DNA of 64,000 bases from Prochlorococcus sp. AG-363-B11. GTDB lineage: Bacteria; Cyanobacteriota; Cyanobacteriia; PCC-6307; Cyanobiaceae. Below the pieces are notes generated by a model, which was not told the origin of the DNA, searched no databases, and worked only from the letters and a program-made list of their open reading frames with translations. Each line of letters starts with the position of its first letter. Position 1 is the stretch's first letter. The stretch covers positions 1 through 64,000 of the forward strand of contig QCFE01000010.1 in NCBI GenBank assembly GCA_003278425.1, given 5' to 3'. A program made the translations under genes and the position numbers. Positions 52,935 through 55,266 of the stretch are shown here, in pieces.

Positions 52935-52972
52935 CACATCTGCTATAGTAGAAATGTACTATAGCAGATGTG
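52935..52972. promoter_or_regulatory. LexA-like operator palindrome over the umuD promoter
   Basis: A perfect inverted repeat with 16-base arms, CACATCTGCTATAGTA (52935-52950) and TACTATAGCAGATGTG (52957-52972), around GAAATG. The core AGTAGAAATGTACT matches the cyanobacterial LexA-box consensus (AGTACN-ATGTACT type) with one deviation, and TGCTATAGT at 52941-52949 makes an extended -10. The repeat ends in the GTG at 52970. Confidence 0.65.
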
Positions 52973-53431
52973 TGCTTAAGAGTGCCTCGCTCCAATCTGT
53001 CTTTGCCATTAGTTAGAAGATACGTAATTGCGGGATTCCCTTCGCCCGCCGATAACTACGTTGACACGGGTATTGACCTAAACGAAGAATTAATACATCA
53101 TCCATCAAGCACTTTCTTCCTACGCGTCAGAGGTGAATCCATGCGTGACGCGGGAATCCTAGATGGAGACTTGCTAATTGTTGATCGAAGTCTAAATCCG
53201 CAGCCAGGGGATATTGTAGTAGCCATAATTGATGGATCTTTCATCGTAAAAAGGCTCACTTATCGCAAAAACGTTTCCTATTTAGAAGCAGAGCATCCAA
53301 ATTATCCAGCAATTGATTTAAGTCATTACGAAAACGTACAAATCTGGGGAGTGGCGACGTTCTCTGTTCATAAGTTAAATCTTACAAAACAAGAATGGAG
53401 TCAAATCTATGGCTACCGCTCTAGTCGATAG
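52970..53431 (+). CDS. umuD: UmuD: SOS mutagenesis protein, autoprotease
   Basis: 153 residues from a GTG at 52970, or GTG 52982 (giving about 149), because the first lies in the operator. The cleavage site is in YVIAGFPSPADNYVD (Ala-Gly), then LRVRGESMRDAGILDGDLLIVD with the nucleophile Ser and FIVKRLTY with the general-base Lys. Very close to E. coli UmuD. After RecA-stimulated self-cleavage it forms the UmuD'2 subunit of translesion polymerase V. It overlaps umuC by 23 bases. Confidence 0.94.
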   Translation: MCLRVPRSNLSLPLVRRYVIAGFPSPADNYVDTGIDLNEELIHHPSSTFFLRVRGESMRDAGILDGDLLIVDRSLNPQPGDIVVAIIDGSFIVKRLTYRKNVSYLEAEHPNYPAIDLSHYENVQIWGVATFSVHKLNLTKQEWSQIYGYRSSR

Positions 53432-54674
53432 CAATAACTTCTATGCTGCTTGTGAGCAAAGCATAGACCCTTCAATTGCAAATCGTCCCTTAATAGTACT
53501 TTCAAATAACGATGGATGCGTTATAGCTCGTAACGCTAAAGCGAAGTATCTTGGTGTCTCTATGGGACAACCATATTTTAAAATACGTCGCCAATTAGAA
53601 AAAATTGAAGCTGAGGTAAGAAGTTCAAACTACACGCTCTACGCTGATATAAGTCAACGCTTTATGAGCATCATAGAAGCTAATTGCGAAGAACTTGAGG
53701 TATATTCAATCGATGAAGCATTTATAAAAGTCAGCCGTACTTCAGATCATAATTTAATGATATGGGCACGTCGCTTAAGGGAAATAATATATCAAAGGTT
53801 AAGCTTACCAGTCGCTATTGGAATTGGTGAGAATAAAAGCCAAGCCAAGATTGCAAATCATTTAGCAAAGACAATGCCCAGTCATTCAGGCATATTCGAT
53901 TTAGGTATTGCTAACGATCAAGATTATTTTCTTAAACAAGTTGAAATAGAAGACGTTTGGGGAATTGGTCCCAAACTCGCTTACTGGTGTCGTGCCAATG
54001 GAATTCATAATGCCTTACAACTACGAGATATACCAAGCAACAAACTAAAGAAGAAGTTTGGCGTTAAAGGCATGCGATTACAATATGAACTAAAAGGCCA
54101 CAGTTGCATAAAATTCTCTTCACAGGCAATGCCTAAAAAGGAGACTTGCGTTAGCAATAGTTTGAATAAGCCTATAAATAATATAGAAAACTTGCGGGAA
54201 ATAATAGCAACTCATACTATACGTGCGAGTGAGAAGCTAAGGAAACAAAAGCAGAATGCTACGTCTGTAACCATTTTCACTCGTACTAGTTTCTATACGC
54301 CAAATTTTTACAGCCAATCTGCAACAAAACGCCTCGATATACCTAGTAATGATACGAGAATCCTTTTAGCAGCGGCCCTTGGATTAACGAAGGAGATATT
54401 TCATCCAAATTATTTATTAATAAAAGCTGGAGTAATAATGCAAGAGCTTCTAGGTGCAGACTCTCTTCAACTACATTTACTTTCAAGGAAAAGTTTCGGA
54501 ACGTCAAAAGAAGGATGCTTAATGAAAGCAATCGACAACTTAAACAAGCGTTACGGTCAAGACACAGTTTATTGGGCTGCCTGTGGAATGAAGAAGAAGT
54601 GGGAGGTACGCCGAAGACATGTAAGTGCCTTAGCCACAACACGCCTAAGTGATGTTCCTATCGTACAAGCATAA
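53409..54674 (+). CDS. umuC: UmuC: Y-family translesion DNA polymerase V catalytic subunit
   Basis: 421 residues, full length. Catalytic motifs: ALVDSNNFYAACEQ (first aspartate), NNDGCVIARNAKAKYLGV, and YSIDEAFIKV (second DE pair). HhH segment WGIGPKLAYWCRANGI and the little-finger domain follow; UmuC C-terminal domain KRYGQDTVYWAACGM. Overlaps umuD by 23 bases and the HExxH gene by 26. Relative to neighbours it has more CGN arginine codons, consistent with a distinct history. Confidence 0.95.
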   Translation: MATALVDSNNFYAACEQSIDPSIANRPLIVLSNNDGCVIARNAKAKYLGVSMGQPYFKIRRQLEKIEAEVRSSNYTLYADISQRFMSIIEANCEELEVYSIDEAFIKVSRTSDHNLMIWARRLREIIYQRLSLPVAIGIGENKSQAKIANHLAKTMPSHSGIFDLGIANDQDYFLKQVEIEDVWGIGPKLAYWCRANGIHNALQLRDIPSNKLKKKFGVKGMRLQYELKGHSCIKFSSQAMPKKETCVSNSLNKPINNIENLREIIATHTIRASEKLRKQKQNATSVTIFTRTSFYTPNFYSQSATKRLDIPSNDTRILLAAALGLTKEIFHPNYLLIKAGVIMQELLGADSLQLHLLSRKSFGTSKEGCLMKAIDNLNKRYGQDTVYWAACGMKKKWEVRRRHVSALATTRLSDVPIVQA

Positions 54675-55266
54675 GAAACAAGAAGAAGATCACTTAAAGA
54701 ATCACCAATATAATAAAATCCTTAAAAGATACAAACCACATCAAAATAACAAGCATATGTTGGAATTTATACTATTCCTAAATTCTCCAGAAAAAGAAAT
54801 TGTAAGTTTAATCAAAAAAGCCAATTACAAAATAGAAGAAAATACACCTCTATGCCTTATAAGTAGAAAGTTCTTTGGTTTTTTAAAAAAGAAGCAGCGA
54901 ACAGTTGTTATATGCACAGACAATGCAAAAGAGTATGGTGGTTATATGTTCGCGAAAGGTCCAAAAGGAGACGGCTCATTTAAAACAGGTCTAATGATAA
55001 GAAGAGCACTACGTCATGAATCAGTGCACATCGCCCAAGAATGCAATGGAGGCCATCCAATTAATGAAGTCAACGAAGGCAAAGGGATAAAAATAAGCCC
55101 CTACAAACTCAATGCCTTAAAAGGATCAACAGAATTGACTGGAGAACGAGAAAAGGAATATGAGGCCTATGCTTTGGAAGATAGACCAAGAAAAGTAATC
55201 TCACTGCTTAAAAGTTACTGCTTTAAGCAAGAAAGAAAATCGGAGGTAGTTAGAACAGACACATAA
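54649..55266 (+). CDS. Unknown protein with HExxH metallopeptidase motif
   Basis: 205 residues from GTG 54649; ATG at 54652 is equally possible. The centre RRALRHESVHIAQECNGGHP has the zincin motif HESVH (His123, Glu124, His127). A downstream acidic helix EREKEYEAYALEDRP offers the third ligand Glu (Glu170 or 172) in the ExxA style of gluzincins. The N-terminus is basic and helical. Its start lies 26 bases inside umuC, so it belongs to the same message and is likely SOS-controlled. No family name recognised; peptidase activity is inferred. Confidence 0.6.
   Translation: MMFLSYKHKKQEEDHLKNHQYNKILKRYKPHQNNKHMLEFILFLNSPEKEIVSLIKKANYKIEENTPLCLISRKFFGFLKKKQRTVVICTDNAKEYGGYMFAKGPKGDGSFKTGLMIRRALRHESVHIAQECNGGHPINEVNEGKGIKISPYKLNALKGSTELTGEREKEYEAYALEDRPRKVISLLKSYCFKQERKSEVVRTDT

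Follow-up and report, generated by a model that had tools for sequence, protein, structure and literature searches.

The described metalloproteases that come closest to the protein considered here are the IrrE/PprI and SprT/Spartan enzymes. In IrrE, a Glu serves as the third zinc ligand; SprT proteins are marked by a third His and a C-terminal zinc ribbon. Both groups carry the HExxH motif, and IrrE/PprI operates in a DNA-damage setting (PMC10904395). Activation by zinc and redox state is on record for IrrE (PMC7907104), as is activation by single-stranded DNA for PprI (PMC10904395). With regard to DNA polymerase V (Pol V), LexA target predictions include umuCD in many picocyanobacteria (PMC3091678), and umuC is highly expressed for longer under UV in strain PCC9511 (PMC2921402). 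No published description of a protease partner for Pol V, or of the protein discussed below, was found in the open-licence literature, which agrees with the original remark that no such partner was known.

The window analyzed here, a 64,000-nucleotide stretch of contig QCFE01000010.1 from Prochlorococcus sp. AG-363-B11, belongs to a Prochlorococcus-type assembly of 1.49 Mb that is 82% complete, and single-cell genomes of Prochlorococcus are its nearest named matches. The order of genes at the locus is rlmH, umuD, umuC and the gene encoding the HExxH protein, followed by dnaG on the opposite strand. The umuD product (52970-53431, plus strand) is a Peptidase_S24 protein (PF00717, 2e-28) with the Ser of GESM, the Lys of VKRL and an AGF cleavage context, the roles of which are those established in E. 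coli UmuD. As UmuD retains a Ser/Lys protease of its own, along with the context of its cleavage site, it is unlikely that the HExxH protein trims UmuD, as had been suggested. The catalytic subunit of Pol V is encoded by umuC (53409-54674, plus strand), with the Pfam domains IMS, IMS_C and DUF4113.

Ahead of umuD lies a LexA-like box, AGTAGAAATGTACT (52947-52960, plus strand), with one mismatch to the cyanobacterial consensus, and all of the relatives checked have a comparable box ahead of this gene. The box of the window lies within a perfect inverted repeat of 11 bp (CTGCTATAGTA/TACTATAGCAG, 52940-52967), between rlmH and umuD. The gene for the HExxH protein is located on the same strand, downstream of the LexA-boxed promoter and of umuC, and its proposed placement in an SOS operon holds up in this respect. 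The gene itself lacks a LexA box, the best candidates being no better than shuffled sequence in the loci scanned, whether umuC-linked or displaced, and no terminator-like site is seen between it and umuC. Co-transcription with umuDC is plausible. Because the gene lacks its own box, damage induction would have to come by read-through from umuDC, which is likewise plausible.

The gene was first recognized as an open frame (54649-55266, plus strand) 3' of umuC, carrying HESVH and conserved Glu residues downstream of it, and this much is confirmed by its homologues and alignments. It had also been thought to start within umuC and to be translationally coupled to it. However, the GTG at 54649, inside umuC, is no more than the earliest start available in this frame, and homologues begin at a Met equivalent to the ATG at 54757 (MLEF...). 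The coding sequence thus runs from 54757 to 55266 on the plus strand, encodes 169 amino acids and begins 82 nt past the umuC stop. The in-frame extension at 54649-54756 (plus strand), the source of the apparent overlap, has no counterpart in the conserved part of the relatives; in loci L003/L026, whose protein is 77% identical to that of the window, an in-frame stop interrupts the supposed overlap. With the conserved start 82 nt beyond umuC, there is no overlap-based coupling in the window, and the earlier proposal was rejected as an artefact of choosing the first possible start. The gene itself is genuine, far beyond chance, given its homologues in relatives, a dN/dS of about 0.1 (0.09-0.16 against three relatives), which indicates strong purifying selection, and the presence of HExxH in all alignment rows.

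The HESVH motif (H87, E88, H91; 55015-55029, plus strand), predicted to be zinc-binding and catalytic, is an instance of HExxH, which is invariant in every row of the two family alignments, A1 and A2, as expected of the zincin superfamily; viral members had been recovered with an HExxH pattern, genome members without one. Within 204 aligned family rows preselected for HExxH, E134 (55156-55158, plus strand) is a Glu in 200 and an Asp in 3, while E136 (55162-55164) is Q in 24, and E134 is the likely third zinc ligand on this evidence. Gln94 is conserved alongside these residues, as are two pairs of cysteines. C96 (55042-55044, plus strand) and C155 (55219-55221) are both present in 201 of the 204 rows, and the only row in which C96 is missing has no C155 either. 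C33 (54853-54855, plus strand) and C53 (54913-54915) are either both present or both absent in the divergent members checked, with one clear exception (L167). With few exceptions, then, Cys33/Cys53 and Cys96/Cys155 behave as disulfide pairs would. Most members consist of a single domain that ends at C155.

Homologues of the gene were found in 24 of 60 sampled relatives. Linkage was counted at one locus per genome in the 96 genomes that gave a strong match. Two of these loci are at contig ends, and in 85 of the remaining 94 Prochlorococcus-type genomes umuC is the immediate upstream neighbor on the same strand, at a gap of 6-359 nt (median 71). In 23 genomes, which all belong to the genus-level lineage g17, the gap shrinks to 6-10 nt. 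This adjacency is retained down to 42% umuC identity. In the other nine genomes, the gene occurs at unrelated sites away from umuC, next to housekeeping genes. To judge from the sequences of the neighbors, these sites include one beside rpmI-rplT, one close to mqo and a gene for an aminotransferase, one that follows gpmI-secG, and one close to a ribonucleotide reductase gene. Where umuDC could be located in genomes with a displaced gene, rlmH-umuD-umuC-dnaG is usually intact without it (L189, L190, L192, L193). Displaced copies nest several times inside the umuC-linked clade, and the gene can thus be retained without its umuC link. In three genomes (G061, G078 and G113; loci L164, L165 and L168), a copy with a shorter loop is found, always at the gpmI-secG site, and G061 and G113 have a second family copy elsewhere. 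The expectation that the gene would recur with umuDC is therefore borne out within the Prochlorococcus clade. It fails outside it, as the Synechococcus umuDC loci examined (L194-L198) have no such gene between umuC and dnaG, and the gene does not accompany umuDC across bacteria as a general Pol V component would. As the host linkage concerns a single syntenic locus, it is largely one evolutionary event.

A check for recurrence in phages had also been proposed, and relatives are present there, linked to the gp45 sliding clamp gene and not to umuC. Among cultured phages, DSL-LC02 and S-SRM01 have it immediately 3' of gp45, and in SynMITS9220M01 it follows gp45-denV. In IMG/VR, a search seeded with the pattern HE[AS]..H[VI]AQ gave 180 viral relatives, and all of the best 80, on T4-like cyanophage contigs, are located 0-27 nt 3' of gp45; owing to the seed pattern and the retention of the best 80 of 180, this count describes the closest viral relatives. 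Of 39 distinct ones among these, 29 have a 1-nt overlap of the gp45 stop with the start of the gene (TGATG or TAATG), and three have a 4-8 nt overlap; an overlap of the type once proposed for umuC thus exists in phages, with gp45. In a divergent viral lineage, seeded with the SynMITS9220M01 protein, 15 of 18 contigs have the gene within the gp45-gp44 region, 3' of gp45 and, where both are visible, ahead of gp44, with denV in between in three contigs. Distant relatives in the podoviruses P60 and S-CBP42 and the myovirus ACG-2014f are located away from this region.

Every member of alignment A2 matches phrog_16003 (best 2e-17), which is the family's viral counterpart. Its PHROGs annotation gives only an unknown function, however, and neither the gp45 nor the umuDC link is recorded there. 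The DSL-LC02 homologue (L034:5004-5414, WJZ48381.1), a 136-residue HExxH protein, is labelled a serine hydroxymethyltransferase, apparently in error. Contigs of cyanophages may have been binned with the bacterial genomes G114 and G273 (L182 and L181, respectively): the L182 protein is nearly the same as that of phage locus L141, while that of L181 clusters with gp45-linked phage genes. A recent transfer of the host gene from phages is unsupported, as hosts and phages form distinct clades on the tree, a split that is moderately supported.

From these settings, it seems that the HExxH protein probably works at the replication machinery. A replisome role is the best reading of its position behind Pol V genes in hosts, next to the clamp gene in phages, and with denV in some of these. 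It may be that the protein is a cytosolic zinc metalloprotease, co-expressed with Pol V, that acts with the clamp-bound polymerase at stalled forks. In such a model, the gene would be transcribed behind umuD-umuC in most Prochlorococcus, and would for that reason be expressed upon LexA inactivation; the protease would join the polymerases bound to the clamp where forks have stalled, and would cut there a protein bound or crosslinked to DNA, a regulator, or a polymerase or clamp partner. The phage relatives, whose gene is tied to that of the sliding clamp, would serve an equivalent role at the phage replisome. We place the probability of this reading at about 45%, given that the adjacency is indirect, that in hosts the link comes down to a single inherited locus, that displaced copies exist and that the ancestral family looks exported.

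This last point requires some consideration. A strongly hydrophobic segment is found at the N-terminus of nearly all the divergent relatives checked (those of Synechococcus, G046, the podoviruses, ACG-2014f and S-CRES1), but is missing from the Prochlorococcus and gp45-linked forms. Most distant relatives thus look exported or membrane-anchored and have paired cysteines, and the cytosolic forms, on this basis, appear to be derived from an exported family whose ancestral role may be unrelated to DNA. All four cysteines are kept in the cytosolic forms although these have no export signal, and redox control through them is a possibility. In the S. elongatus-like genome G046, two tandem membrane-anchored paralogues (L024:412-1755) lack Cys33/Cys53, and five family matches occur genome-wide.

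The exported appearance of these relatives also speaks for the alternative that fares best, in which the protein is a zincin of general protein quality control or processing without any special DNA role, its umuDC position simply inherited and its gp45 position a phage site that tolerates cargo. The persistence of the gene at several unrelated sites, without a LexA box, would fit such a protein, and the cyanophage gp45-gp44 interval does hold other small genes. However, adjacency to the clamp gene in all of the best 80 of 180 viral relatives, mostly with overlap, would be unusually consistent for cargo and is seen again in a divergent viral lineage, and adjacency to umuC persists down to 42% umuC identity. 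We consider a general zincin rather unlikely.

The nature of the fold bears on a second alternative. Neither Pfam nor NCBIfam contains a family that matches the window protein, and no relatives with solved structures were found by sequence. An AlphaFold2 model, built from an alignment of 47 window and locus sequences, has a pLDDT of 90.2 and a pTM of 0.86, and places HESVH in a long helix. Foldseek alone gave nothing significant against the PDB, and the named significant matches in BFVD are cyanophage proteins. VIA-align, with middling Z values, puts PprI/IrrE at the top (Z 7.2 over 88 residues, 3.1 Å), and most of its leading matches are zincins. The model thus resembles zincin-type metalloproteases, in line with the original proposal, and the protein is a predicted zincin. 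A search with PADLOC for defense-system membership gave no meaningful match.

Given that PprI/IrrE heads the structural neighbors (Z 7.2, 6.9 and 6.6, including a PprI-ssDNA structure), it may be that damage, single-stranded DNA or released zinc activates the protein to cut a transcription regulator (in phages, a host regulator) and not a protein at the fork. The paired cysteines could be redox-sensitive, and the recorded modes of activation of IrrE and PprI (PMC7907104, PMC10904395) offer precedents. Yet the protein does not match PF06114 (IrrE/ImmA, M78), and profile comparison by hhalign with PF06114 proteins of related genomes gives a probability of 9%, so membership in that family is unsupported by sequence. 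Unlike IrrE/PprI, it is one domain of 169 residues with no GAF or HTH region and no additional DNA-binding domain, and its genes are linked to those of Pol V or the clamp, whereas IrrE/PprI is linked to the DdrO repressor; no adjacent DdrO-like regulator gene was seen. A PprI-like regulatory protease is a serious rival, but an unlikely one.

A SprT-type enzyme, the comparison drawn at first, would suit the context through the repair of DNA-protein crosslinks, and some family members give sub-threshold matches to PF10263. The window protein itself is unmatched, the best relative scores 17.4 bits against a cut-off of 25.6, and hhalign gives 1.4%. As the family has neither an invariant third His nor a zinc ribbon at the C-terminus, these scores are below threshold and most sampled Prochlorococcus genomes encode a separate bona fide SprT, the SprT identity was rejected. 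Family members also show weak matches to two other HExxH families, Peptidase M76 (Atp23) and DUF6782 (best 0.0009 and 0.0027), all under the curated cut-offs; M76 was not found in the cyanobacterial genomes sampled, in a scan that gave no positive control signal. In YbeY, which has a zincin fold, a third His is present, and the idea that the fold has been retooled as a zinc-binding nuclease of this kind, or as a protein that binds the clamp or a polymerase without enzymatic activity, to which YbeY-like structures among the weaker neighbors lend some color (1oz9, Z 5.1; 7y7o, Z 4.1), is very improbable given that the catalytic Glu of HExxH and the Glu third-ligand candidate are kept in all lineages.

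The replisome reading can also be put in a more specific form: a dedicated protease, recruited from an exported, disulfide-bonded zincin family, that in Prochlorococcus is the third product of the Pol V operon and acts at the clamp-polymerase complex, with a clamp-coupled version in phages. This form is possible, but is offered tentatively. What is new is the genomic setting in which the zincin occurs, and probably the functional one as well. If the replisome reading is right, translesion synthesis in a very abundant phototroph would have a proteolytic partner of a kind that Pol V is not known to have in other organisms, and the cyanophages of T4-like type would bear the same activity, tied to clamp expression. 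It would likewise provide a function for an orphan phage family, and a testable route by which clamp-bound polymerases may be cleared or switched.
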